NCBI GenBank assembly: GCA_902826215.1
Contig: CADEDY010000001.1
Location: forward strand, 372,001 to 436,000
Source: an uncultured Bacteroidota bacterium
GTDB taxonomy: Bacteria > Bacteroidota > Bacteroidia > Flavobacteriales_F > PHOS-HE28
Direction: 5' to 3'
DNA: 64,000 nt
The position numbers and the translations under genes were made by a program. The notes under the pieces are model-generated. The model was not told where the DNA came from, searched no databases, and worked only from the letters and a program-made list of their open reading frames with translations. This document shows, piece by piece, positions 37,144-59,292 of the stretch (positions are counted from its first letter, which is position 1; the number at the start of each line of letters is the position of its first letter).

Positions 37144-38607
37144 ATGGCCACCAAGACCAAGAAGCAAGCTTTCGACTGGCAGCTCGCCCCAGCCCCCGAA
37201 TCCAAGGACCACTTCACCCTCAAGAGTGAATACGACCTCTTCATCGGCGGCAAATGGGTCAAGCCCAAGAGCGGGAAGTACTTCGACACCATCAACCCCG
37301 CCAACGAGCAGAAGATCGCGCGCATCGCCGAGGCCAACCAAGCCGATGTGGACGCTGCCGTGAAAGCCGCGCGCAAGGCCTACGACAATGTGTGGAGCAA
37401 GATGCCCGCGGCCGAGCGCGCCAAGTACATCTACCGCATCGCGCGCCTGCTGCAGGAGAAGGCCCGCCAGTTCGCCGTGGTCGAAAGCATGGACGGCGGT
37501 AAGGCCATTCGTGAAAGTCGCGATGTGGACGTGCCCCTCGCCGCCGCGCACTTCTTCTACTACGCCGGTTGGGCCGACAAGCTCGGCTACGCCTTCCCCG
37601 GAAAAACACCCAGCGCATTGGGCGTCGCCGGGCAGATCATCCCGTGGAACTTCCCGCTGCTCATGGCCGCGTGGAAGATCGCGCCCGCGCTCGCCTGCGG
37701 CAACACCGTGGTGCTGAAACCCGCCGAGACCACACCGCTCACCTCCCTGCTGCTCGCCGAGCTCATCCAGGAAGCCGAACTGCCCGATGGCGTCGTGAAC
37801 ATAATTACCGGTGCGGGGGCCACGGGCGCGGCGCTCGTCAACCATCCGGGCATCGACAAGATCGCCTTCACCGGCAGCACCGGCGTGGGCAAGCTCATCC
37901 AGAAGAGCATCGCAGGCACCGGCAAAAAGGCCACGCTCGAACTCGGCGGCAAAGCGGCCAACATCATCTTCGCCGACGCCACCATCGACCAGGCCGTCGA
38001 AGGCATCATCAACGGCATCTACTTCAACCAGGGCCACGTGTGCTGCGCCGGCAGCCGCCTCTTCGTGGAGGAAGGTGTGCACGACGAAGTGATCCGCAAG
38101 CTCAAGCACCGCATGCGCTCCCTCGTCGTGGGCGATCCGCTCGACAAGAACACGGACATCGGCGCCATCAACAGCAAGGAGCAGCTCGGCACCATCAACA
38201 AATACCTCAAGGTGGGCGTGGCCGATGGCGCGGAGATGTACCAGCCCGCCTGCGAGCTTCCCAGCAAAGGCTTCTGGTGCCGCCCCACGCTCTTCCTCAA
38301 CGTAGCGCAGAGCGCGCGCATCGCGCAGGAGGAGATCTTCGGCCCCGTGCTCGCCGTGCAGACCTTCCGCACCGTGGACGAGGTGATCCAGAAAGCCAAC
38401 AACACGCTCTACGGCCTCAGCGCCGGCGTGTGGACGGACAAGGGCAGCAAGATCTTCAACCTCACCAGCAAATTGCGCGCGGGCGTCATCTGGGCCAACA
38501 CCTACAACAAGTTCGATCCCACCTCACCCTTCGGCGGCTACAAGGAAAGCGGCTACGGCCGCGAAGGCGGCTTGCACGGCTTGAGCGCGTACTTGAATTT
38601 GAGTTGA
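37144..38607 (+). CDS. aldehyde dehydrogenase (NAD(P)-dependent), full length
   Basis: A 487-residue ALDH-superfamily enzyme oxidising an aldehyde to its acid. It contains IIPWNFPLLMAAWKIAPAL in the cofactor region, the FTGSTGVGK loop, the general base Glu in LELGGKAAN (about residue 263) and the nucleophile Cys in GHVCCAGSR (about residue 300). Length is normal. A second, truncated ALDH without these catalytic residues lies at 57014-57976; in some Bacteroidota I recall such a short paralogue next to a full one, but here they are 18 kb apart. Confidence 0.95.
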   Translation: MATKTKKQAFDWQLAPAPESKDHFTLKSEYDLFIGGKWVKPKSGKYFDTINPANEQKIARIAEANQADVDAAVKAARKAYDNVWSKMPAAERAKYIYRIARLLQEKARQFAVVESMDGGKAIRESRDVDVPLAAAHFFYYAGWADKLGYAFPGKTPSALGVAGQIIPWNFPLLMAAWKIAPALACGNTVVLKPAETTPLTSLLLAELIQEAELPDGVVNIITGAGATGAALVNHPGIDKIAFTGSTGVGKLIQKSIAGTGKKATLELGGKAANIIFADATIDQAVEGIINGIYFNQGHVCCAGSRLFVEEGVHDEVIRKLKHRMRSLVVGDPLDKNTDIGAINSKEQLGTINKYLKVGVADGAEMYQPACELPSKGFWCRPTLFLNVAQSARIAQEEIFGPVLAVQTFRTVDEVIQKANNTLYGLSAGVWTDKGSKIFNLTSKLRAGVIWANTYNKFDPTSPFGGYKESGYGREGGLHGLSAYLNLS

Positions 38608-39551: not shown

Positions 39552-40358
39552 ATGGCAGACCTGACTCCACTTGAGAAGCGCAGCTTGGAAAGGCTGTTTG
39601 GAATGGGCGGAGGCTACGTGCTGAACTTTTCGAACAGGACCTTCCAAGAGTTCGTACTTGACACTGTTGGGAAGGATATTGACGACGCTAAGTACAACTG
39701 CGCGAGTGGCTCGAAGGCAAATCGTTTGCGCGGATTTTGGACCTCCGAGCAGAACCTAATTGTAGGCCGGCTGTTGTCCGCTCTGATTGAGTACGGGCAA
39801 GCAGACACCGCATTTGCACCTGACCTTCTTTCTCAGTGCCGGGGTATCGTCAATCGCCTCTTGCAGGAGCTTCCCGTGCGCGAGATTGAGGCTCTTACAT
39901 CGGTCACGAACGAGAAGGAGTTCGAGCATCTCGAAAGATCCGTTCGGGATGCCGTTGAACGGAGTAACCCTGAATCCGGACTGGACCATTTGCACACCTA
40001 CCTCGTCAAGTTTGTTCGGGTAAGGTGTGAACGCCGAGGCATCGACATCACAAAGGAGAAGCCTCTGCATAGTCTCTTTGGGGAGTATATCAAACACCTT
40101 AGGGAGGAGGGATTGATTGAATCGGAAATGACCGAGCGGATATTGAAGTCTTCCATCTCCCACATGGAGGCATTCAACCATGTTCGCAACAACAAGAGCC
40201 TTGCCCACGACAACAAGGTTCTGGGCTATGAAGAAGCACTCTTCATAATGAATGCCGTGACGAGCTCTATTCGGTTTGTACGCTCGGTCGATCCTGACAA
40301 TGCCAAGCCGAAGACAGTGCTGAGTACTGTGAGCGACGACGATGACCTTCCGTTTTGA
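39552..40358 (+). CDS. abortive infection family protein (Abi C-terminal HEPN domain)
   Basis: A 268-residue protein whose C-terminal third matches the Abi C-terminal family: HVRNNKSLAHDNKVL followed by EEALFIMNAVTSSIRFV. The RNNKSLAH segment (R212, H219) is an R-x6-H HEPN motif, so ribonuclease activity that halts phage-infected cells is expected. The N-terminal two thirds are helical and may sense the trigger. The last residues, SDDDDLPF, copy the acidic tail of bacterial single-stranded DNA-binding protein (DDDxPF), an unusual feature. It is divergent from another HEPN-like gene. AT-richer codon use than the neighbours suggests horizontal origin. Confidence 0.75.
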   Translation: MADLTPLEKRSLERLFGMGGGYVLNFSNRTFQEFVLDTVGKDIDDAKYNCASGSKANRLRGFWTSEQNLIVGRLLSALIEYGQADTAFAPDLLSQCRGIVNRLLQELPVREIEALTSVTNEKEFEHLERSVRDAVERSNPESGLDHLHTYLVKFVRVRCERRGIDITKEKPLHSLFGEYIKHLREEGLIESEMTERILKSSISHMEAFNHVRNNKSLAHDNKVLGYEEALFIMNAVTSSIRFVRSVDPDNAKPKTVLSTVSDDDDLPF

Positions 40359-40392: not shown

Positions 40393-40434
40393 ATGGACAA
40401 CACAAGGGTCTTCCGGATGTCGTTCGCGAGCGGT
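40393..40434 (+). pseudogene. 5' fragment of a DUF2200 gene
   Basis: The first 13 codons read MDNTRVFRMSFAS, matching the N-terminus of DUF2200 proteins (the intact copy at 43540 reads [12 protein letters not shown]). Homology stops there and an unrelated lipoprotein frame continues without a break. It is one of several gene-end fragments in this region. Confidence 0.7.
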
Positions 40435-40902
40435 ATGGTGCTCAGCCTGGTCTGCTTGCTCTCCTGCTCAAGGAGCGGTAGTGAGAAGTCGGGTCAAGGT
40501 CTGGACAATCTCAGAGGAAGCGATACGCTGATCTTGAGAGGACACTTCGCTGATTGCGGTGAATGGGGTGGGCACCACGAAGTGATCAGGATCTATAGAC
40601 AGGACAACGCTCTGCGTGCTACTTACGAGAGGGACACAGTGAAATGTCCGGACCCGTCGTACTTCAACCGTCGAATCGTTGAGAGCTTGGAAGGGCAACT
40701 TGACCAGTCTATGGAGAAAAGGATTGTTGCCTATTTACAGAGTCTGACAGAACGAACGTTCCTCGACGAGGGCATCAGCAATGCTGGTGACGTGTACGCG
40801 GCAACCAGAGAGGATATGGGATTGGAGCTTGTCTATCGGAACTACAACCAGAACTGGAACGGGTTTGCGGAGTTGAAGCGCAGCTTGTTCGGTGACCAAT
40901 AG
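40435..40902 (+). CDS. hypothetical lipoprotein
   Basis: A predicted lipoprotein of 155 residues if started at the ATG at 40435 (MVLSLVCLLSCSRSG, lipobox LLSC). The open frame begins 42 bases earlier at 40393, but those codons belong to a DUF2200 fragment fused in frame, so translation may start at either site; with the fragment the protein has 169 residues. The mature part has paired Cys and no recognised family. It lies between the Abi gene and a DHFR-family fragment (40912). Confidence 0.6.
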   Translation: MVLSLVCLLSCSRSGSEKSGQGLDNLRGSDTLILRGHFADCGEWGGHHEVIRIYRQDNALRATYERDTVKCPDPSYFNRRIVESLEGQLDQSMEKRIVAYLQSLTERTFLDEGISNAGDVYAATREDMGLELVYRNYNQNWNGFAELKRSLFGDQ

Positions 40903-40911
40903 TTACCCACC

Positions 40912-40983
40912 ATGCCCCGCCTCATCGTCCACGGCTTCACCATCTCGCTCGACGGCTACGGGGCCGGCCCGCAACGATCAGTG
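40912..40983 (+). pseudogene. 5' fragment of a DHFR-family gene, copy A1
   Basis: ATG plus about 22 codons (MPRLIVHGFTISLDGYGAGP...) of a dihydrofolate-reductase/RibD-C-domain gene, then loss of homology and a stop at 41008-41010. The first 33 bases are almost identical to copies at 41702, 42231 and 42791. It lies nine bases after the stop of the lipoprotein gene. Confidence 0.75.
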
Positions 40984-41014
40984 GCGCAAAATGCTGAGTT
41001 AGCACATTGAGGGA

Positions 41015-41641
41015 ATGACCTGGAGACCGTCCCTTAGAGACATTACAGGAGTGGAAATACTGCTCGTGTATGCACTTGCAGTAATATCCGTCCTCGCATT
41101 GGGTTGGTGGCTGTTCCGCGTGCTCAAGGCATATCGCACGGGCGGAAAGCGCAGCGCGGTCCTTCAACCAAGCTTGGCGGTTGTCTTGTTCCTTGCCCTC
41201 ACATGGTTGTATGTCTCTTTCGAAAGGACCTCAGGCGTTCTGCCTACGGGTGGTCTGCACTATCTGAAAGGCTATCTCTGTTGGCCATACAATGTCAGTG
41301 TCTTTTCCATTGATGACGTGAAGCTTGATTCAGCATTCTATCGCTATCCCCTCGACGACTACCTTCTCAAAAGTGGAGAGTATGGGATCACACGTTGGAC
41401 GAACTACAGTCCGATCGATACCGTGATTTGGTACGGAATGGACAGCACGTTGAAGGGATGCAACGACCACAACGACCTGTACGATGCTTTGATGAGAGGC
41501 GATTCCCTCTATTTCGCGGGCACGTATAGGAACATGATCGTTCCGAACGGTAGTCGGAAGCAGGCCTACGAGCGCATAATATTCCTTGACGTGACCCGGA
41601 AGCGGCTCCACATATTCAAGGATATCAATAAGGTGTTCTAG
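41015..41641 (+). CDS. hypothetical membrane protein
   Basis: A 208-residue protein with two N-terminal transmembrane helices (about residues 15-38 and 51-70) and a C-terminal soluble domain of about 135 residues with aromatic and acidic residues (WYGMDSTLKGCNDHNDLYD). No family recognised. It lies between DHFR-family fragments A1 and A2 and is probably accessory cargo. Confidence 0.65.
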   Translation: MTWRPSLRDITGVEILLVYALAVISVLALGWWLFRVLKAYRTGGKRSAVLQPSLAVVLFLALTWLYVSFERTSGVLPTGGLHYLKGYLCWPYNVSVFSIDDVKLDSAFYRYPLDDYLLKSGEYGITRWTNYSPIDTVIWYGMDSTLKGCNDHNDLYDALMRGDSLYFAGTYRNMIVPNGSRKQAYERIIFLDVTRKRLHIFKDINKVF

Positions 41642-41701
41642 CCCTCGGTGGTCTTCGGGTGCTCCCACAACGTTCGAACTGACCTTGTAGCACGACCTGC
41701 C

Positions 41702-41734
41702 ATGCCCCGCCTCATCGTCCACGGTTTCACCATC
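41702..41734 (+). pseudogene. 5' fragment of a DHFR-family gene, copy A2
   Basis: Eleven codons, MPRLIVHGFTI, identical in protein sequence to copy A1 and differing by one synonymous base (GGT for GGC). Homology ends sharply at 41734. Confidence 0.7.
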
Positions 41735-41904
41735 CTCGGGACCTTTAGCCATAAGGCGTTTCGTAGCCACGATACTGTGCGTGCTCGATGCAGGTGCCCG
41801 CTTCATCACACGGCCTATCACTTGGGTGCGAACGGAGCAATTCTGCTTTTGCATGCACGTTGATGGAATCGGTCCACGAACACCACATCGGGGCCACCTC
41901 AACC

Positions 41905-42138
41905 ATGCATCGCTTTTCCATCCTCTTGTTCATCTGTATGCTCGGCACCGCAAGTGCAGCACCGCTCAGGGCCAGTGCCCCTCCTGACCAGCATCACGTG
42001 ATGTGGACCACGGAAAAGGGCGCTCGCAAGTGCATCACGAAGAAGACCCGCGAGAAGGCGGAAAAGGCAGCTGCGCTTTTGCGGAAGATCTCCTTTTTCA
42101 AGGATATCCAAGTACTCCCGGGGAAGTGCGATAAGTGA
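41905..42138 (+). CDS. small secreted protein, unknown
   Basis: A 77-residue protein with a signal peptide (MHRFSILLFICMLGTASA) and a short basic mature part (KKTREKAEKAAALLRKISFFKDIQVLPGKCDK). No family recognised. It sits between fragments A2 and A3. The open frame continues upstream to 41788, but the signal peptide fixes the start at 41905. Confidence 0.55.
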   Translation: MHRFSILLFICMLGTASAAPLRASAPPDQHHVMWTTEKGARKCITKKTREKAEKAAALLRKISFFKDIQVLPGKCDK

Positions 42139-42173
42139 GCATGTCTGGGCGGCGGCTTCGATCCCCCGACTTT

Positions 42174-42197
42174 GGCACGAGCGTCCACGCTCGTGGG
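42174..42197. repeat. hairpin CACGAGCG-TCCA-CGCTCGTG
   Basis: A perfect 8-bp stem with a four-base loop, 35 bases after the small secreted protein gene. It may be a terminator or a copy of a dispersed palindrome. No T run follows. Confidence 0.4.
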
Positions 42198-42230
42198 CTA
42201 GGGCCAACTTCGATCCGCAATCATCCCCCC

Positions 42231-42350
42231 GCGCCCCGCCTCATCGTCCACGGTTTCACCATCTCGCTCGACGGCTTCGGCGCCGGTCCGCAACAATCGT
42301 TGGAGGCCCCTCTCGGCATCGGCGGTGAGGCCTTGCACGACTGGATCGTC
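42231..42350 (+). pseudogene. 5' fragment of a DHFR-family gene, copy A3 (longest)
   Basis: Forty codons of the same DHFR-family N-terminus, through SLEAPLGIGGEALHDWIV; the first codon is GCG instead of ATG, so it cannot start translation. Homology ends within a few bases of the convergent lipoprotein gene at 42355. Confidence 0.78.
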
Positions 42351-42354
42351 TTAC

Positions 42355-42696
42355 CTATTTGATCAGCTCGTAGGTCATCTCGTCGAGCGAATAGAACGTG
42401 CCTGATCCTCTGTTCGCAACCATCGGATCGATGTCAGCCTCTGTGATCAATGTTTTGCGCAGGATCCCTGAAACACGAACCCGCTGTCCTCGGTATTCCT
42501 CCAAGCCCCACGCATCCACGCCCTCCACTTGTGGGCACTTGGTGTTGGTAACGACACCTTCTAACACGACCCGTTCCCCCACTTGCTGCTCCAGATCACG
42601 GTCGGCCGCTGATGCCGGGGCTGTAACCGATGTGGACCGGCATCCAACGAAACCAGCGGTAGTGAGAAGGAGAGTGAATATCAACGCGGCACGCAT
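42355..42696 (-). CDS. small lipoprotein, unknown
   Basis: A 113-residue lipoprotein (MRAALIFTLLLTTAGFVGC, lipobox at about Cys19). The mature part (VGERVVLEGVVTNTKCPQVEG ... RGQRVRVSGILRK) has the strand pattern of a small OB-like barrel, which is inference. Opposite in strand to the flanking fragments A3 and A4. Confidence 0.6.
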   Translation of the reverse strand: MRAALIFTLLLTTAGFVGCRSTSVTAPASAADRDLEQQVGERVVLEGVVTNTKCPQVEGVDAWGLEEYRGQRVRVSGILRKTLITEADIDPMVANRGSGTFYSLDEMTYELIK

Positions 42697-42790
42697 GGTG
42701 AGTAGCAGGCAGGCCCAAAGTACAATGGTGTCGAGCGGCCCCATGCAACGGCTGGGTTGAACCCCCCAATCCGATCCCTAACCTCCCACG

Positions 42791-42823
42791 ACGCCCCGCC
42801 TAATCGTCCACGGTTTCACCATC
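42791..42823 (+). pseudogene. 5' fragment of a DHFR-family gene, copy A4
   Basis: Eleven codons (TPRLIVHGFTI) with ATG changed to ACG and one synonymous change (CTA). Homology ends at the same base of the gene as copy A2. Confidence 0.7.
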
Positions 42824-42863
42824 TGGCCTGCCTCCGGAAGGCAGGCTCGCGTCACCCGGCGTT

Positions 42864-43223
42864 CTACTCCAACTTCCGTTGCCGCACACGTGGCGGATCG
42901 AACACGGTGATCCGTCCCGACAGGTCTGCTTCCGGGTTGGCGGCGAGGTAGTCCAAGAGCATGCGCGCTGGAGTGTCCGGCTTGTAGCTGAACAACCGGA
43001 AGTAGACAATGCCGCCATGAGCCGGTTGGTTGCGTGCGATCGCCAAAGTGCCGAGGTCACTATCGAATGTGAGGATGGTGCGGCCGCTCACATTGGCGCG
43101 CTTCACCACATCCTCATCCACTGAGCCAACTGCTATATCGCCGATGTGTTGGACGTCGTGACCCGCTTCGCGAAGCACGATAACGCTCGGCATCGGAAAG
43201 TTCTCGTCGGCAAGAAATTTCAT
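42864..43223 (-). CDS. DUF5615 PIN-like toxin
   Basis: A 119-residue PIN-like protein of the DUF5615 family. The acidic residues expected of the nuclease site are visible: LADENFP at the N-terminus, SVDEDVV and LTFDSDLG in the middle. It is probably the RNase toxin of a type II system, since its start overlaps (ATGA) the DUF433 gene upstream in the same operon. It lies between a DHFR fragment and the intact DUF2200 gene. Confidence 0.85.
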   Translation of the reverse strand: MKFLADENFPMPSVIVLREAGHDVQHIGDIAVGSVDEDVVKRANVSGRTILTFDSDLGTLAIARNQPAHGGIVYFRLFSYKPDTPARMLLDYLAANPEADLSGRITVFDPPRVRQRKLE

Positions 43224-43462
43224 TCCGCCTTGCCAGGAAGGGGCCACATGAGCATACCGTCCACCATGCACTCCAGCACGAAGGCATGCACGGCCTGGAT
43301 GTGCTCCGGCTTCAAACTCGGGAAGCTCTCCAGCAACATGTCGTTGCTCCATCCATCGGCCAAGCGACCTTGGATGTGCTCCACGGCCAGACGCGTACCC
43401 TTGATTATGGGCTTGCCCCCAAGGATCGCTTTGTCGCTGGTGATGTGCTGCTGCCAGTTCAT
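43220..43462 (-). CDS. DUF433 antitoxin
   Basis: An 80-residue DUF433 protein ([31 protein letters not shown]) with a helix-turn-helix-like fold. DUF433 proteins are regularly paired with PIN-like DUF5615 proteins, acting as antitoxin and autorepressor. It is first in the operon and overlaps the toxin gene by four bases. Confidence 0.87.
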
Positions 43463-43539
43463 GCCCCGAAGTTAGGATGATCGTACATTCCAGTGTAGCG
43501 CAGCCTGGTCTGAATGAAAGCGCCCAACTTTGCGGAGCA

Positions 43540-43902
43540 ATGAAACCCGGAGCCAACAACGAACGCGTGTATCGCATGTCCTTCGCCAGTGTGTACCCGC
43601 ACTACGTCACCAAGGTGGAGAAGAAGGGCCGCACCAAGGAGGAGTTGCACACCGTGATCCACTGGCTCACGGGCTACCCGGAGAAAGGCCTCGCCAAGGT
43701 GATCGCCGACAAGATCGACTTCGAGACCTTCTTCGCCAAAGCGCCACGGATGCATGCGAACGCACACCTGATCACGGGCATGATCTGCGGTTATCGCATC
43801 GAAGAGATCGAGGACCCCGTCATGCGGCAGGTGCGTTACCTGGACAAGCTGGTGGATGAGCTGGCGAAGGGTAGGGCCATGGAGAAGATCCTGCGGAAAT
43901 GA
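43540..43902 (+). CDS. DUF2200 family protein, intact
   Basis: A 120-residue soluble protein of the DUF2200 family ([27 protein letters not shown] ... [18 protein letters not shown] ... [16 protein letters not shown]). Function unknown. This is the only full copy here; an N-terminal fragment lies 3.1 kb upstream (40393) and C-terminal fragments lie 0.8 and 2.1 kb downstream (44546, 45906). The start at 43540 follows an AACTTTG element by seven bases; the frame opens upstream but without family similarity. Confidence 0.85.
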
Positions 43903-43931
43903 TCGGCCCTGCACATACCTTGGTGGACACC

Positions 43932-44456
43932 ATGCGCACCTTCATCCTGGCCGCAACCCTCTGCCTTCTCCACGCGAGCGGTAGCGCGCAAGTGACGGTC
44001 ATCGACATGCCGCCTGAGCGTCCTCCGCGCCCCTTGGTGGACATAAGCATCGGCGAGTACGAACGCCAGGAGGACGGCAGCCTGCAGGTGGAGTTCCGGA
44101 TCATGAACAGTTCGCCCGACACGGTCCACTACCTCATGATGTCCTGCTCCACGGAAGACCTTCTGATGCTGGATACGCTATCCTGCTTCGAATTGGTTCC
44201 AAGTGTCTGTGATAAGAACGTCCCACAACGGAGTACGCTACCACCAGGGAAGCTCTCGGTATATCGGTTCACAATGAAGCCCCTCCAGGTGGGGCGACGG
44301 GGTGGGCGCTATGTGCGGGGCATGGTAGGGTGGCGCTATGTGCCCGTGCCGCCAGGCACGGACCTGTCCACCGCCTTTGAACAGCGCGAGCAGCTAGGCT
44401 CCATCGTTTGGTCCGAGCCGCTCCCCAACTGGAGTTGGCAGCCGAGTCGCCCCTGA
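43932..44456 (+). CDS. secreted beta-rich protein, unknown
   Basis: A 174-residue protein with a signal peptide ([20 protein letters not shown]) and a single beta-sandwich-like domain ([22 protein letters not shown] ... VHYLMMSC ... YRFTMKPL). It may resemble Ig-like inhibitor folds, but that is a guess. It lies between the intact DUF2200 gene and its first tail fragment. The ATG at 43932 fits the signal peptide. Confidence 0.6.
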
Positions 44457-44545
44457 TGCGATCTGGAATGCACGTTGAACCGAAGAGCAGCTTCTCTGAC
44501 CTTGCGACCGGAGCACGGATCACTAGGACCTCCGCATTCATGGTC

Positions 44546-44722
44546 ACAGGCTTGGCCAAGGCTCCAAGCCTCAACACGAACGTCTCGAGCGTCGCCGGCG
44601 TCATCTGCGGTTACCGCATCGAAGAGTTCGAGGACCCTATCATGCGGCAGGTGCGCTACCTGGACAAGCTGGTGGATGAGCTGGCGAAGGGCAGGGCGAT
44701 GGAGAAGATCTTGAGGAAGTAA
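44546..44722 (+). pseudogene. 3' fragment of a DUF2200 gene, copy B1
   Basis: About 58 codons matching the C-terminal half of DUF2200 ([29 protein letters not shown]... to the stop). The last 80 bases are about 90% identical to the intact gene; farther upstream the match is at protein level only. Its TAA overlaps the ATG of the Crp/Fnr gene (TAATG). Confidence 0.78.
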
Positions 44723-45309
44723 TGACCGATCCACACGAGGTTCTCTGTGTGCACTTCGATCGCTACCTGGCCCTGGACCCGGCCGAGCAATCGGCGCTGA
44801 AGGAACGCAGTCGTGTGCGCCGCCTGAAACGGCGCGGCTTCCTGTTGCAGGAGGGCGAAGTGTGTCGGTCGTATGCTTTTGTGGTGGAGGGCTGTTTGCG
44901 GATGTACGAGATCGACGAGAAAGGCGTGGAGCACAACCTGCAGTTCGCGCAGGAGAACGAGTGGATCGTGGACATCGGCAGCTTCCACGCGGAGAAGCCG
45001 AGCAGCCTCTTCATCGAAGCCTTGGAACCGAGCACGGTCGTATGCATCGAGCATCCCGACCTGCTTTGGCTCTACACCGAGCACCCGAAGTTCGACCGCA
45101 ACTTCCGGGTGATCATCGAGGACCTGTTCGTGGAACTGCAACAGCGGCTGCTTCGCCGCAATGCTTCCAGTGCCGAACAGCGTTACGCGCATTTCGTTCA
45201 GCACCATCCGGGCTTGGCGGCGCGCGTCCCCGGCGTGCACATCGCCTCCTACCTGGGCGTCACACCGGAGTTCCTCAGTCGCCTGCGGGCGAAGACGAGC
45301 AAGCACTGA
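44722..45309 (+). CDS. Crp/Fnr-family transcriptional regulator
   Basis: A 195-residue regulator with an N-terminal cyclic-nucleotide-binding-like beta roll (about residues 20-120) and a C-terminal winged helix. The recognition helix reads VTPEFLSRLR, an E-x-x-S-R pattern as in FNR, which reads TTGAT half-sites; a perfect TTGAT-N4-ATCAA palindrome begins five bases after the stop. No N-terminal Cys cluster like that of oxygen-sensing FNR is evident. The start overlaps the stop of the DUF2200 fragment. It probably controls the SnoaL-like gene that follows. Confidence 0.85.
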   Translation: MTDPHEVLCVHFDRYLALDPAEQSALKERSRVRRLKRRGFLLQEGEVCRSYAFVVEGCLRMYEIDEKGVEHNLQFAQENEWIVDIGSFHAEKPSSLFIEALEPSTVVCIEHPDLLWLYTEHPKFDRNFRVIIEDLFVELQQRLLRRNASSAEQRYAHFVQHHPGLAARVPGVHIASYLGVTPEFLSRLRAKTSKH

Positions 45310-45310
45310 A

Positions 45311-45330
45311 ACCTTGATCTGGATCAAGGT
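45311..45330. promoter_or_regulatory. FNR-type operator palindrome
   Basis: ACCTTGATCTGGATCAAGGT is a perfect palindrome with 8-base arms containing the FNR consensus TTGAT-N4-ATCAA. It lies between the Crp/Fnr gene and the SnoaL-like gene, 70 bases before the latter's start. Confidence 0.72.
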
Positions 45331-45400
45331 CATTTCTTGATCCGCTCCATGGCGGCGCCCGTGCAGTGAGGCCAACCTTTGTCCTGTCAACGGATCGACC

Positions 45401-45889
45401 ATGAAACACAACATTCTCCTCGCGCTATCAGCGGTCATGCTAGTGAGCTGCCAAGCGCCCAACCCGGAAACCACAACGGACCTGAACACCGCCGAAACCA
45501 TGAACACCGCCAACGATCAGACCGCGATCAAGGACCTTCTCTTCGCATACCGCGATGCCCTCAACGCCTCCAGTGTGGACCAGGTTCTCCCGCTCTACAC
45601 GACCGATGGCGTGTTCATGCCAACAGGCTTCCCGACAGCCGTCGGAACGGAGCAGGTGAAGGGTGCATACGCCGGTGTATTCTCCATGATCAAGCTGAAC
45701 ATCGAGTTCTTCATCGATGAGATCGAAGTGGATGGCGACCATGCTTTCGCCCGCACCACCTCGCGCGGCACCACCTTGATCCACGCCACGGGCGAGACCG
45801 TTCCCGAAGAGAACCGGGAGCTGTTCGTGCTTCAACGCACCGACGGCGGCTGGAAGATCGCGCGGTACATGTTCAACAAGATGAAGTGA
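45401..45889 (+). CDS. SnoaL/SgcJ-like NTF2-fold lipoprotein
   Basis: A 162-residue lipoprotein (MKHNILLALSAVMLVSC, Cys17) with an NTF2-like domain (DQTAIKDLLFAYRDALNASSVDQVLPLYTTDGVFMPTG ... FVLQRTDGGWKIARYMFNKM). It belongs to the SgcJ/EcaC group; substrate unknown. It is probably regulated by the adjacent Crp/Fnr protein through the palindrome at 45311-45330. Confidence 0.82.
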   Translation: MKHNILLALSAVMLVSCQAPNPETTTDLNTAETMNTANDQTAIKDLLFAYRDALNASSVDQVLPLYTTDGVFMPTGFPTAVGTEQVKGAYAGVFSMIKLNIEFFIDEIEVDGDHAFARTTSRGTTLIHATGETVPEENRELFVLQRTDGGWKIARYMFNKMK

Positions 45890-45905
45890 TCGGTGATCCA
45901 TCACC

Positions 45906-45955
45906 TCGATGAACTGGCCAAGGGCAGGGCCATGGAGAAGATACTGCGGAAGTGA
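45906..45955 (+). pseudogene. 3' fragment of a DUF2200 gene, copy B2
   Basis: The last 16 codons of DUF2200 ([16 protein letters not shown] and stop). In the final 48 bases it differs from the intact gene at five positions, all synonymous. It starts 16 bases after the stop of the SnoaL-like gene. Confidence 0.75.
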
Positions 45956-45965
45956 GCGGGCTCGC

Positions 45966-46598
45966 CTACTTCTTGAAAAGGATCCGCCCGCAAGGGACCA
46001 TTGCGTAGTGCTGCGGTGGGTCGATCGCTATGCCGAAGATGAGGTCGAGTTCATCCCCCCTGCTTTGTGCCGGTGGGTATGGATCCTTTCGGAAAGAATA
46101 AGGGATCGGGCGTTCGACCATCGATGAACAGTTCTGCACGTCCAACTCCATCTGGAGGAAGGACCACACCGATGTATAGGAGATGATCTTCTCCGGGCAG
46201 GATCGTTGTTCGCGGCGATGTAGGTCCATCTGGACGTGCGCTCAAGTAGACCTCCGATCCTTTGATCCCGAAATTGAGGACGTCCGGTGCTGTGTCCGGG
46301 TGATCTCGTCAGGGAAGAGGAAAACGCTGGGGTGCTTAACGGAGTCTGGCAGCATGGTGATGGGGCCGCCGGGAAAGTCCATTGCCAACTCGACGGGAAT
46401 GGTCGTGTCGTTCATTACGTGTACCCTGTAGATCCAGTACCCAAGCACTTTTCCATTTGCATCGGTATAGCCACCGCTTCTCGGTCCGTGGGTCTGTAGC
46501 ACGATACCGTGGTAGGTGTTCGGATGATGGGATGCCTTGTCGGTCCAGGAGCAACTGACCGCCACAACGAACAGGATCAGGCTCCAATGTTCCCTCAT
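45966..46598 (-). pseudogene. secreted hypothetical protein with two apparent frameshifts
   Basis: Three overlapping minus-strand frames together read as one protein. The first part (46598 to about 46295) has an export/lipoprotein signal (MREHWSLILFVVAVSC) and ends near SVFLFPDEITR; it continues in another frame (APDVLNFGIKGSEVYLSARP ... ELFIDGRTPDPLFFP, to about 46085); and finishes in a third (GDELDLIFGIAIDPPQHYAMV ... LFKK). Either the gene is decayed or the sequence has two indel errors. No family recognised. It follows DUF2200 fragment B2. Confidence 0.6.
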
Positions 46599-51951: not shown

Positions 51952-52509
51952 TCACCTCTTGACTGCGTACCGCATCGCCACCGCCCCCGAGCCAAACTCC
52001 TCGCGGCCCACGAGCTTCAGGTCCACCATCTTCGATAGTCCAGCGAACAAGGTGGGCCCTCGACCGATGATCCGCGGATGCACCACGAACTGGTACTCAT
52101 CGATCAAGCCCAGCTCCGTCAGAGCCATCGCCAACTGCACGCCACCCACACCGATGCCCTTGCCCGGTTGCTGTTTGAGCTGATGAACGAAGGTGGCCAG
52201 ATCGCCGCGTACCATTTCGGTGTTCCACTCCTTGGTGTCCACGGTGCTGGACACGAGGTATTTTTTCGCCGCGTCCACCGTCTTGGCGAACGGCTGCATC
52301 CACGGCGGCATCCAATCCGGCCATGTTCCGCTCGGTGGCATGCGCCACGCCTCCTCCATCATCTGGTAGGTGACCCGGCCGAAGAGGAGGTCATCGCACC
52401 CGGCGATGTACTCCATGGCGTTGCGGTGCAGGTCCTCGTCCGCGATCCCCACGGTGTGGTCGTAGCAGCCGTCCAAGGTGACGTTGAGGGAAAAGCGGAG
52501 GGGGCGCAT
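51952..52509 (-). CDS. DHFR/RibD-C-family reductase
   Basis: A 185-residue protein of the dihydrofolate-reductase-like superfamily (RibD C-terminal type): MRPLRFSLNVTLDGCYDH at the N-terminus, DLLFGRVTYQMMEEAW in the middle, GIGVGGVQLAMALTELGLIDEYQF and the VHPRIIGRGPTLF segment near the end. These are NADPH-binding folds of mostly unknown substrate. A second copy of the first 20 codons lies 440 bases upstream (52890-52951), on the other side of an unrelated gene. Confidence 0.88.
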   Translation of the reverse strand: MRPLRFSLNVTLDGCYDHTVGIADEDLHRNAMEYIAGCDDLLFGRVTYQMMEEAWRMPPSGTWPDWMPPWMQPFAKTVDAAKKYLVSSTVDTKEWNTEMVRGDLATFVHQLKQQPGKGIGVGGVQLAMALTELGLIDEYQFVVHPRIIGRGPTLFAGLSKMVDLKLVGREEFGSGAVAMRYAVKR

Positions 52510-52828: not shown

Positions 52829-52951
52829 TCACTTAGGTTCAACTACGCCAGTGACATCCTTCAAGTCTTGCAGTATTGCCTTCTTGATCATGCCCTCATG
52901 ATCGTAGCATCCGGCCAAGTTGACATTGATGGAGAAGCGGAGGGGGCGCAT
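52829..52951 (-). pseudogene. 5' fragment of a DHFR-family gene, copy C1
   Basis: A 40-codon frame whose first 18-20 codons (MRPLRFSINVNLAGCYDHEG) match the start of the intact DHFR-family gene at 52509, about 85% at base level; the rest is unrelated. It lies 18 bases after the stop of the gene at 52970. Confidence 0.72.
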
Positions 52952-52969
52952 TCAGTGGATGATGGGTGG

Positions 52970-54832: not shown

Positions 54833-55186
54833 CTACTTCGGCTCCCACAACTCGATCTTGTTCCCTTCCGGATCGTACACCCATGCGAAGCGGCCGTAGC
54901 CCTCATCCTGGCGCTTGGGATCGATGCGCACACCGGCTTCCTCCAGTTTCTTCAGCAGACCATCCATGTCCTGCACACGCAGGTTCAGCATGAATTGCTG
55001 CTTCGCGTCGAAGTAGTCGGTGTCACGCTTGAACGGCGAGAACACCGTGGGGCCGGCATCCTGTTGCCAGATCCAGCCGTTCTCCTGGTCGTTGATGCCG
55101 AAGTGCTTGTTGTACCAGCTGGCGAGTGCCTTGTGGTCGTCCGCGCGGAAGAAGAATCCGCCGATGCCTGTGACGTGTCGTGACAT
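54833..55186 (-). CDS. VOC-family (glyoxalase/bleomycin-resistance fold) protein
   Basis: A 117-residue VOC protein with the two beta-alpha-beta-beta-beta modules (GIGGFFFRADDHKALASWYNKHFGI; WVYDPEGNKIELWEP) and the Glu metal ligand near the C-terminus. Activity unknown: lyase, dioxygenase or thiol-transfer members exist. Divergent from a second VOC gene, 48 bases between the starts. Confidence 0.9.
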   Translation of the reverse strand: MSRHVTGIGGFFFRADDHKALASWYNKHFGINDQENGWIWQQDAGPTVFSPFKRDTDYFDAKQQFMLNLRVQDMDGLLKKLEEAGVRIDPKRQDEGYGRFAWVYDPEGNKIELWEPK

Positions 55187-55221
55187 GGGTTGGTGATCGA
55201 TCCTGCCAAGGTAAGAGTGGA

Positions 55222-55229
55222 TAGCTTTG
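55222..55229 (+). promoter_or_regulatory. -7 element five bases before a VOC gene
   Basis: TAGCTTTG matches TAnnTTTG; the ATG follows at 55235, implying a leaderless or nearly leaderless transcript. Confidence 0.5.
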
Positions 55230-55234
55230 GCCGA

Positions 55235-55660
55235 ATGCAAGCCCGCCTCACCTTCATCACCCTCGGAGTATCTGACCTCGACAGGTCTAAAGCTTTCTAC
55301 AACGATGTGCTCGGCTGGAAACCCTTCCAGGATACAGGCGGTATCGTCATGTACAAGCTCAACGGCATGATCCTCTCCCTATTCCCGCAACATGAACTAA
55401 CAGCGGATGCGCAGGTCAAGAATGAAGGCACTGGTTCACGCTTCACACTGGCGCAATGCCTGCACTCCACAGAGGAAGTGGATGCGTTCTTCGCCGAACT
55501 GAAGAAGCACGGCGTCACCATCCCCAAGGAACCGGTGAAAGTGTTCTGGGGCGGTTACAGCGGCTACTTCGCCGACCCGGATGGGCACCTGTGGGAGATC
55601 GCGCACAACCCGTTCTTGGACATGGATGCGGACGGGAACGTGATCGGCATGAAGCAATAG
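55235..55660 (+). CDS. VOC-family protein
   Basis: A 141-residue VOC protein (FITLGVSDLDRSKAFYNDVLGW ... YFADPDGHLWEIAHNPF) with His and Glu metal ligands in the usual places (WEIAHN). Substrate unknown. Divergently transcribed from the VOC gene at 54833, possibly an ancient duplicate pair. Confidence 0.92.
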   Translation: MQARLTFITLGVSDLDRSKAFYNDVLGWKPFQDTGGIVMYKLNGMILSLFPQHELTADAQVKNEGTGSRFTLAQCLHSTEEVDAFFAELKKHGVTIPKEPVKVFWGGYSGYFADPDGHLWEIAHNPFLDMDADGNVIGMKQ

Positions 55661-57013: not shown

Positions 57014-57976
57014 ATGAGCAAGACGACCACGAAGCCCACCGCCGTCAAGGCCGACCTGAACGGCCACAGCACCAACGGCGCTGCCAAGAAAGCCGAACGT
57101 GTTCCGGTGATGAAGACCTACAAGATCTTCATCGGCGGCAAGTTCCCGCGCACCGAGAGCGGACGCTACTATCAGCCCTTGGACCACGATGGCAAACCGC
57201 TGGCGAACATCTGCCGAAGTAGCCGCAAGGATGTGCGCGAAAGCGTGATCGCTGCGCGCAAGGCCTTGGGCGATTGGTCCAACCGAAGCGCCTTCAACCG
57301 CGGGCAGATCCTCTACCGCATCGGCGAGATGCTCGAAGGCCGCAGCGCGCAATTCGTGCATGAACTGAAGTTGCATGGCGCTACGCAGAACCAAGCCGAA
57401 GCCGAGGTGGCCACCGCCATCGACCGCTGGCTCCACTACGCCGGTTGGTGCGACAAGTACCAAGCGGTCTTCAGCAGCGTGAACCCCACGAACAGCTCGC
57501 ACTTCAACTTCAGCGTGCAGGAACCCACCGGTGTGGTGGGCGTGATGGCACCAGACAACACGGGCCTCTTGGGTCTGGTGAGCATGATCGCTCCCGTGAT
57601 CACCGGCGGCAACACCTGCGTGGTGGTGGCCAGCGAAAGCAAGCCCTTGCCCGCCGTCACCTTTGCTGAAGTGCTTGCCACCAGCGACCTCCCCGGCGGC
57701 GTGGTGAACCTGCTGACCGGTTTCCGCAAGGAGCTGCTGAAGCCCTTGGTAGCGCACATGGACATCAACGCCATCGCCATTGCCGATACCACGAAGGAAG
57801 AGCGCACCATGCTCGAACAGGAAGCGACCTGCAACCTCAAGCGTGTGGTCTATCCGAAGGTGAGCGATTGGATGAAGGAGGATGGTCAGAGCCCGTATAT
57901 GATCCTCGATACACAAGAAGTGAAGACCACGTGGCACCCGATCGAGCGGGGGCAGGGTGGGGGTGGTGGATATTGA
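57014..57976 (+). CDS. truncated aldehyde-dehydrogenase-like protein lacking the catalytic domain
   Basis: A 320-residue ALDH-superfamily protein containing only the cofactor-binding half (YKIFIGGKFPRTESGRYY ... EPTGVVGVMAPDNTGLLGLVSMIAPVI ... SKPLPAVTFAEVLATSDLPGGVVNLLTG). The LELGG Glu and the catalytic Cys loop are absent, so it is unlikely to oxidise aldehydes. The C-terminal VKTTWHPIERG region looks like a natural end of this subfamily, so it is a shortened paralogue rather than a broken gene. Its last codons recur twice downstream (58729, 59241). A TTG at 56972 is an alternative start. Confidence 0.85.
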   Translation: MSKTTTKPTAVKADLNGHSTNGAAKKAERVPVMKTYKIFIGGKFPRTESGRYYQPLDHDGKPLANICRSSRKDVRESVIAARKALGDWSNRSAFNRGQILYRIGEMLEGRSAQFVHELKLHGATQNQAEAEVATAIDRWLHYAGWCDKYQAVFSSVNPTNSSHFNFSVQEPTGVVGVMAPDNTGLLGLVSMIAPVITGGNTCVVVASESKPLPAVTFAEVLATSDLPGGVVNLLTGFRKELLKPLVAHMDINAIAIADTTKEERTMLEQEATCNLKRVVYPKVSDWMKEDGQSPYMILDTQEVKTTWHPIERGQGGGGGY

Positions 57977-58705: not shown

Positions 58706-58728
58706 TGGGTGACAGTTCCATCGTATAT

Positions 58729-58782
58729 GCGCAGAAGGTGAAGACCACTGGGCAGCCGATCGAACGGGGCGGAGAATATTGA
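58729..58782 (+). pseudogene. 3' fragment of the ALDH-like gene, copy D1
   Basis: Seventeen codons and stop (AQKVKTTGQPIERGGEY) matching the last codons of the gene at 57014 (TQEVKTTWHPIERG...GY and stop). A TATATG match just upstream suggests the homology runs a little farther with a small deletion. Confidence 0.72.
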
Positions 58783-58785
58783 TGA

Positions 58786-59235
58786 ATGTTGATCATGCGC
58801 TTGGTGCTGCTCATGACCGTTTACTTGTCGTTGACCGCGATGGTCACGGACGGCGGCAATTCGTCAAGCCGCATTGACTTTACGAACGATGAGTCGGTGG
58901 TTTTTATGACCGAGACCGTAGTCGAACTGATCGGCCCGCCTCACTTAACGCCGGATTGTGGGTACTTCGCTTTCGAGTCTGCCATGCTGTTCAAAGTGGT
59001 TCAAAGTGAAAAGTACATGTCTGAAGGAGATAGCGTGGTCATGATCTTCCGGTGTCCTGAGGGGTATGGTCCGGATTTCTTCGAACGTACGCGCCAATAC
59101 GTGGTGGAGCTTGTAGATGCTGCACCGGAAACTGGTTTCGGCTGGTCTACACTCAACGTGTACAAAGACGCGAAACTTCGGACTTTCTGGGCGACTTCGT
59201 GCAAGCCGCGTTTCTTTTCGGGGCCATTGCGATGA
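58786..59235 (+). CDS. small secreted protein, unknown
   Basis: A 149-residue protein with an N-terminal export signal (MRLVLLMTVYLSLTAM from the ATG at 58795, or three residues longer from 58786). The mature part contains Asp/Glu-rich strands and two Cys (PDCGYFAFE, FRCPEGYG). No family recognised. It starts four bases after fragment D1 and ends six bases before fragment D2. Confidence 0.6.
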   Translation: MLIMRLVLLMTVYLSLTAMVTDGGNSSSRIDFTNDESVVFMTETVVELIGPPHLTPDCGYFAFESAMLFKVVQSEKYMSEGDSVVMIFRCPEGYGPDFFERTRQYVVELVDAAPETGFGWSTLNVYKDAKLRTFWATSCKPRFFSGPLR

Positions 59236-59240
59236 ATAAT

Positions 59241-59292
59241 GAAGTGAACGTCACCTAGCTCCTGATCGAGAGAGGGCGGGTGGTGGTATTGA
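59241..59292 (+). pseudogene. 3' fragment of the ALDH-like gene, copy D2
   Basis: Matches the last 17 codons of the gene at 57014 at base level (GAAGTGAA ... GATCGAG ... GGTGGTATTGA) but with an in-frame TAG replacing TGG, so it is more decayed than D1. Confidence 0.6.

Follow-up and report, generated by a model that had tools for sequence, protein, structure and literature searches.

The 64,000-nucleotide stretch of bacterial DNA analysed here (the window; bases 372001-436000 of contig C1 in genome G000, which counts 4.16 Mb in 51 contigs) contains a locus where small unrelated genes alternate with partial copies of the ends of a few resident genes, among them DUF2200 and a DHFR-family gene. 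This layout of gene-end remnants is real and recurs genus-wide. Quite probably, these few resident genes anchor a hot spot where additive recombination takes place among the species of a single genus. Donor DNA would carry an anchor gene X together with the donor's own neighbour of X. A homologous crossover inside X would join recipient X to donor X and keep X whole, and the other donor end would be joined illegitimately inside the remaining recipient X; alternatively, a circle bearing part of X plus the cargo might integrate by one crossover, so that the donor may have been linear or circular. At the 3' side the product would read X, cargo, tail of the old X, old neighbour, and at the 5' side old neighbour, head of the old X, cargo, X. 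Repeated events would stack cargo, each leaving one remnant, with the newest presumably beside the intact gene, and import might proceed by natural transformation. One-sided (additive) recombination is known from laboratory transformation, and its natural products are hard to tell from other insertions. The locus displays junctions that survive through the stop codon, a consistent polarity of the remnants, stacking and remnant divergence that is mostly at the between-species level, in a genome with no Ku.

We followed the junctions at DUF2200. A note made earlier from the sequence alone had claimed one intact copy and two 3' ends of this gene, and all three were found, the tails next to a regulator gene (crp) and to a pair of small genes (c4).

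43540..43902, + strand: intact DUF2200, the anchor (PF09966, E 2.6e-54)
44546..44722, + strand: DUF2200 tail 1, with crp still attached; only weakly DUF2200-like in its first 51 nt
45908..45955, + strand: DUF2200 tail 2, with the c4 pair still attached; 94% identical to G005

Compared with the intact gene of their own genome, tail 1 is identical at 113 of its last 126 nt (27/51 in its first 51 nt) and tail 2 at 43/48 nt. For comparisons between genomes we searched 45 genomes of the genus (44 for Ku), where the relatives are uncultured Flavobacteriales and mostly metagenome-assembled genomes (MAGs), along with 14 control genomes; labels of the type G0xx stand for individual genomes. All five tails tested (two in G000 and those of G003, G062 and G026) are colinear through the stop codon into the gene that neighbours DUF2200 in a relative. 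Tail 1 is 81% identical to G008 over its last 126 nt and 85% over the next 150 nt. Tail 2 runs into c4 as in G005, with 79% over the next 150 nt, and also as in G018, G024, G025 and G059, at 70-77%. Over the same length, the G003 tail continues into crp as in G008 (92%), the G062 tail into c4 as in G025 (86%), and the G026 tail as in G023 (66%); 200 random pairs of 150-mers gave a median of 51% and a maximum of 58%. The 100 nt before the tails show 44-59% in all 40 comparisons (5 tails, 8 relatives), i.e. background, and there is thus a non-homologous joint at one end of each of the five tails. Since the tails continue colinearly into the relative's neighbour of DUF2200, the gene end is not the recombination junction. 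Neither start nor stop codon is the junction: a tail is the stump of an old gene, displaced and still attached to its old neighbour. The sharp edge at the stop codon marks the point at which two copies stop having a neighbour in common, not a site where DNA was cut. The exact edges described earlier therefore exist at the shared ends, but they are not where recombination took place, and the idea that a recombinase uses gene ends as its sites fits worse for this reason.

The cargo downstream of DUF2200 was searched for in the same genomes. The order in the window is DUF2200, p43932, tail 1, crp, SnoaL, tail 2, c4 pair.

43899..44456, + strand: cargo p43932, downstream of DUF2200
44722..45309, + strand: cargo, Crp/Fnr-type regulator (PF00027)
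45401..45889, + strand: cargo, SnoaL-like lipoprotein (PF13577); adjoins crp in all four genomes
45966..46598, - strand: c4 pair, two small genes (no Pfam family)

Orthologues of crp (at least 88%) occur in 4 of the 45 genomes, always at the locus, downstream of DUF2200 in three of them and upstream in G021; the next best match is at 43%. In G008 crp-SnoaL lies directly 3' of an intact DUF2200, with overlapping TAATGA, and a further DUF2200-like tail follows SnoaL (by eye). In G003 it comes after another cargo and a tail, and in G021 behind a DUF2200 head and a DHFR head. The c4 pair lies directly 3' of DUF2200 in G005, G018, G024, G025 and G059, the last having a DUF2200 with a frame slip. 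Import of X with its neighbour and repeated recombination at X, as proposed before, is hence supported for two cargo blocks. The accompanying expectation that cargo would be found beside an intact anchor elsewhere held for crp-SnoaL (G008) and c4 (five relatives) and failed for p43932, which is present in 2 of 45 genomes, the second being a remote match in G007. The simplest reading of the order of gain is that c4 came first, crp-SnoaL next and p43932 last.

At the 5' side, a single DUF2200 head had been claimed, and the outcome depends on the allele used. This piece forms the first 13 codons of a lipoprotein gene, reading MDNTRVFRMSFAS and then GMVLSLV.

40393..40902, + strand: cargo lipoprotein gene whose DUF2200 head (G013-like allele) runs in frame into a signal-peptide-like stretch (no Pfam family)

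It matches the DUF2200 start of G013 at 34 of 39 nt, and no other position in the window reaches 25/39; against the window's own DUF2200 it matches at 24 of 36 nt. A search with the window's own DUF2200 head alone was not significant (E 0.096, the best of 20 shuffled heads giving 0.006).

We mapped 36 loci from 32 genomes of the genus and found a shared scaffold: ALDH1 (+), DHFR head(s) or gene, DUF2200 (+), often the c4 pair, VOC (-) and ALDH2 (+). ALDH1 stands ahead of DUF2200 in the same orientation in all 19 loci that have both. The anchors belong to the ALDH, RibD_C/DHFR, DUF2200 and VOC families, and the cargo has its own reading frames. The remaining scaffold genes of the window, with their remnants, are as follows.

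37144..38607, + strand: ALDH1, left scaffold anchor
51952..52509, - strand: second DHFR-family gene, intact (PF01872)
52899..52952, - strand: remnant head of the second DHFR gene, lying upstream of its intact counterpart (87% over 54 nt)
54833..55240, - strand: VOC (glyoxalase-like) scaffold gene
57014..57976, + strand: ALDH2, right scaffold anchor (PF00171)
58720..58782, + strand: ALDH2 tail 1 (76% over 50 nt)
59226..59292, + strand: ALDH2 tail 2, weak match, decayed (60% over 50 nt)

The recurrence of the layout at a second DHFR gene and an ALDH gene, also put forward in the earlier note, thus stands for the DHFR head and for the ALDH tail ending at 58782, the one ending at 59292 being weak. 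When an intact copy is present in the locus, polarity is as predicted in 28 of 28 pieces, with heads upstream and tails downstream. The 15 heads belong to ALDH1 (7), DUF2200 (5), VOC (2) and the second DHFR gene (1), and the 13 tails to DUF2200 (6), VOC (4), ALDH2 (2) and ALDH1 (1). ALDH1 heads precede ALDH1 in G004, G023, G060 and G066, with three in a row in G060 and two in G004; VOC tails are found in G003, G008, G059 and G066, and VOC heads in G026 and G028. This list was compiled by eye and was restricted to pieces for which the locus itself has an intact copy; it omits unassigned repeat pairs (e.g. L035 at 1386, L037, L049, L051, L053), the internal ALDH1 piece of G010, the frame-slipped DUF2200 of G059 and pieces lacking an intact copy in the locus. 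Some of its matches are short, such as DUF2200 codons 1-20 in G023 (E 0.002) and ALDH1 codons 5-22 in G060 (E 4e-4).

Pieces of scaffold genes occur in 23 of the 32 mapped genomes, a rate that is biased because most of these genomes were selected via search matches to DUF2200 or DHFR heads. One might suspect an assembly artefact of a metagenome bin, given that the relatives are mostly MAGs too. But such layouts are present in many separate assemblies, including those of G004 (4 contigs) and G066 (9 contigs), and this makes an artefact extremely unlikely. Outside the locus, the count of gene-end fragments that had been suggested was run on a sample: with home-made gene calls and the table read by eye, gene-edge pairs number 1 in ~430 kb of G000 outside the window, 3 in 400 kb of G010 and 2-4 in 400 kb of G054, a control of the same class. 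The clustering of gene-end pairs is local and striking at the locus, and since such pairs are rare in the sampled DNA elsewhere, a genome-wide excess is not shown.

Are the remnants imported or home-made? Remnant and intact copy of the same genome differ by 9-24% (76-91% identity) in 10 pairs, an 11th being treated separately and one at 70% excluded. Differences at codon positions 1, 2 and 3 number 48, 28 and 85 in the 10 pairs, and 0, 2 and 5 in the 11th. The claim that many differences are synonymous, and that the fragments did not decay in place, stands as regards the excess at third positions. Yet the differing codons of the 10 pairs comprise 58 nonsynonymous against 68 synonymous ones, and with nonsynonymous changes nearly as many as synonymous, decay in place has also happened. 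The intact ALDH1 of G008 is 90.2% identical to its long tail, and each of the two is closer to some other species. Together, the 9-24% differences, the third-position excess and this kinship of the G008 ALDH1 copies favour import from related species, with later decay, over duplication at home. Local duplication followed by decay and shuffling within one genome would account for the direct orientation and close spacing of those repeats at the locus that were attributed to gene ends, and for the ALDH1 head of G023, 96% identical to the intact copy. It is at odds with the divergence and third-position excess of the 10 remnants, with the window, in which no cargo copy accompanies the gene ends, and with tails that adjoin neighbours found beside DUF2200 in other species; we consider it quite unlikely.

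The four DHFR-family 5' ends reported between the small genes are all present.

40906..40979, + strand: DHFR-family head 1, begins 40912 (repeat/head searches)
41700..41734, + strand: DHFR-family head 2, begins 41702, 33 nt from the start codon
42211..42346, + strand: DHFR-family head 3, begins 42231, ~116 nt from a mutated start codon; leader common with head 4
42772..42827, + strand: DHFR-family head 4, begins 42791, 34 nt from a mutated start codon, with upstream leader

These heads are not chance matches, because 19 of the 45 genus genomes match a 27-mer taken from the DHFR head when up to 3 mismatches are allowed, two of them in the intact gene, and none matches the reversed 27-mer. There are 40 heads in 22 loci, but just 2 of 45 genomes have an intact member of that family. 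Such a surplus of heads over genes could be expected from a site-specific, integron-like cassette system with a recombinase acting on a site inside the DHFR or DUF2200 ends, and it would also agree with the DHFR-head pattern matching on one contig and one strand per genome and with a cluster of break points: 7 of the 40 heads break at exactly +40 (P ~1e-5 if breaks were uniform from +20 to +100). However, break points extend from +16 to at least +160 with no fixed crossover point, the anchor role is shared by several unrelated genes, recombination did not take place at the gene end, no integron integrase exceeded the cut-off in G000, and a XerCD-like query had no match in the 36 loci. We therefore regard such a system as unlikely. 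Selection for fusions retaining a hydrophobic N-terminus may lie behind the +40 cluster, or else a preferred break; four of ten heads read as breaking at +40 are open fusions. We also considered selection of DHFR heads for an early stop after the junction and found it too weak to claim: with junctions placed by eye in 28 of the 40 heads, a first stop within 8 codons occurs in 12, 9 and 5 of the 28 in frames 0, 1 and 2.

In six cargo genes the start is a borrowed head, some 13 codons taken from DUF2200 or DHFR and fused in frame. One is the gene at 40393 in the window, with its DUF2200 head; the others carry DHFR heads, two in G007 and one each in G026, G025 and G003.

40393-40431; L042 9676- and 10185-; L044 2577+; L037 16541-; L118 3393+: fusion sites

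Several of the fused products resemble signal peptides or lipoproteins (by eye), and the borrowed start may have been selected where cargo had lost its own. Two further observations concern the heads. A leader of the form CCCAACTTTGAT..GCAAC stands 5' of the intact DHFR of G067, of several heads (e.g. L044 2545-2576, L042 10186-10220 and, in L115, upstream of 9912-) and of DUF2200 (43524-43539); it resembles the Bacteroidota -7 promoter motif. DHFR heads of different species also share internal variants, CACGGYCGTGATCTCG and CACAGC-AACCATCTCG (e.g. L041 4934-, L035 12414+, L040 5812+, L044 2999+), which suggests that heads are inherited or exchanged as units.

It is possible that displacement is mediated by circles, as has been proposed for rhs: direct gene-end repeats would free a circle, which would then integrate into X elsewhere by one crossover. 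This is a sub-form of additive recombination at resident genes, and the odds of the two overlap. Candidate blocks for such circles exist, namely DUF2200, cargo, tail in G000 and ALDH1 head, c33, ALDH1 in G023; c33 also lies between an ALDH1 piece and ALDH1 in G010. A DUF2200 tail follows crp-SnoaL in G000 and also, as judged by eye, in G008, yet the c4 pair was not found in the G008 locus. A model of this kind has been published for rhs (PMC2935791). No circle was seen, however, the first bracketed copy would still require an illegitimate event, and no mosaic structure could be made out in tail 1. More tentatively, one might think of a recombinase-free cassette system in which homologous recombination alone excises, exchanges and inserts bracketed cargo. 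Cargo lying between two copies of one anchor end would have arms fitting the single X of any relative, and the exchange would work whatever lies beyond X. The five-anchor, genus-wide scaffold would then be a shared docking station, and heads made of leader, start codon and some 13 codons would repeatedly become the starts of cargo lacking its own.

As for the machinery behind additive recombination, DprA and ComEC are present in G000, and Ku was found neither there nor in 40 of the 44 genus genomes searched, being present in 4. No match to the integron integrase model (TIGR02249) passed the cut-off in G000; seven matches fall below it, of a kind present in all 14 control genomes. A XerCD-like protein query found nothing in the 36 loci (612 kb), and a second query of that search is probably not a recombinase. 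With no Ku and no integron integrase over the cut-off, homologous recombination plus an illegitimate step is the simplest route. Ku-dependent end joining assisted by homology, a form of the homology-assisted end joining offered in the earlier note, would explain why one side of each event is illegitimate, but the lack of Ku in G000 and most of the genus leaves it very unlikely. Other kinds of element were considered and rejected: a tRNA-targeted island, for there is no tRNA in the window; a structured RNA repeat, Rfam giving no match at 36000-62000; an integron, given the spread of break points and the lack of an integrase over the cut-off; and a defence island, since PADLOC returned two weak matches only among 10 proteins; an Abi_C domain lies at 39552-40358. 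The gene with this domain (PF14355) lies between ALDH1 and the DHFR heads.

Several observations weigh against additive recombination at resident genes. The crossover inside X was not seen. The window's own DUF2200 is 94% identical to that of G060 over its first 200 nt and 91% over its last 126 nt, too weak a contrast for the hybrid X that would be expected. The homology of tail 1 fades instead of stopping, with weak likeness for 51 nt further upstream. The newest cargo in our order of gain, p43932, has no close relative beside another DUF2200 among the 45 genomes. Intact DHFR genes are limited to two genomes, in neither case in a locus with a head, so the step by which X stays whole cannot be checked for DHFR. 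DHFR breaks are unevenly spread, with their cluster at +40. The ALDH1 piece of G010 (codons 42-86) touches no gene end, and the 96% identity of the G023 ALDH1 head would fit a recent duplication inside one genome too, so that this head could be either. The 28 pieces of the polarity count are not independent events. Finally, DprA and ComEC also have matches in 11 and 10 of the 14 control genomes and, being so common there, are no proof of competence.

The closest known kind that we found is rhs tip displacement, followed by homology-facilitated illegitimate recombination, insertion with long target duplication and core-gene-flanked hot spots. In those parts of the open-licence PMC literature that were accessible, we found nothing that describes gene-end remnants stacked at ordinary genes. 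For rhs, Jackson et al. 2009 (PMC2935791) describe arrays formed by displacement of C-terminal tips, naming mafB of Neisseria meningitidis as an analogue: homologous recombination inserts DNA at a resident gene again and again, the displaced end is kept downstream as a silent fragment, and the remnants form arrays, all of which recalls our locus. In rhs, however, the anchor's own C-terminal tip is exchanged, the 3' end is used and core pieces are, according to that text, always identical to the intact copy, whereas here the cargo is a neighbour gene in its own right, 5' and 3' ends alike are used, a number of unrelated anchors stand side by side, most remnants are 9-24% off the intact copy and the anchors are not rhs-type. 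Homology-facilitated illegitimate recombination, as presented in PMC3240628, similarly has one illegitimate end and inserts of ~1 kb; its other end is homologous, as the proposed crossover in X would be. In such laboratory events a deletion of roughly the insert's size is usual, while at the locus only part of the anchor gene seems to have been lost and one event lies stacked upon another.

Inserts flanked by direct repeats of the target gene are seen at the locus. Insertion with long target duplication is known for restriction-modification genes. In Helicobacter pylori (Nobusato et al. 2000, cited in PMC4978471) such inserts are likewise flanked by a long direct repeat of the target; at our locus, by contrast, the cargo is a mixture of small genes, insertions are stacked and most remnants differ from the target copy. 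Identity between repeat copies here is 76-91% in 10 pairs and 96% in the G023 ALDH1 pair. In the minimal mobile elements of Neisseria, homologous recombination moves alternative sets of genes that lie between conserved genes; one set replaces another between two such genes and, unlike at our locus, serial remnants are not known to be left. Integron cassette arrays consist of ordered small unrelated genes separated by repeats, and so does the locus, but it has no integrase over the cut-off and no fixed site, and its repeats are coding-gene ends of several genes. The same type of joining has been proposed for natural genome diversity by authors whom we take to be Touzain et al. 2010. Their article (PMC2884548) puts small variable segments down to illegitimate recombination, possibly assisted by homology; these segments are mostly small and single, and stacks of gene ends are not described in the portion consulted. 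The core-gene-flanked hot spots reported in 2017 (PMC5635113) resemble the locus as accessory hot spots that use conserved genes as homology and carry no recognised mobile-element genes. A clean two-flank exchange of that type need leave no gene-end remnants, whereas one-anchor addition leaves a scar.

Ordinary genes might thus serve as repeated landing sites, where every event seems to leave a coding remnant touching its former neighbour. The order and source of gene gains would become readable in single genomes, and small accessory genes could be added without integrase or transposon. Such loci offer a place to count the frequency, break points and donors of additive events in uncultured bacteria, and the fused heads suggest a route for recycling a gene start as the N-terminus of a new protein.

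The DHFR heads of the window are interspersed with the following cargo.

41015..41641, + strand: small protein (no Pfam family)
42355..42744, - strand: small protein (no Pfam family above the cut-off)
42864..43462, - strand: DUF433 / DUF5615 (PIN-like) pair (PF04255, PF18480)

The proteins at 40393 and 41015 had no matches in 31 loci, the sole place where cargo of the DHFR side was sought. The DUF433 / DUF5615 pair is presumed from its families to be antitoxin and toxin. An addiction-module antitoxin (PF09720) is found in nine of the mapped loci: L041 (5275-5523), L048, L049, L050, L040, L045, L120, L043 and L039. In G005, G028, G004 and G006 it lies no more than 300 nt from a DHFR head, and in G024, G009 and G002 shortly 5' of DUF2200. 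Elsewhere in G000, a second repeat-rich stretch without gene calls (L223:4560-7750, i.e. G000:C1 ~224560-227750) contains three copies of a 35-nt block and five of a 55-nt block around GGTCTTCCGTCTTCGG; it has no Rfam match and is possibly another array.

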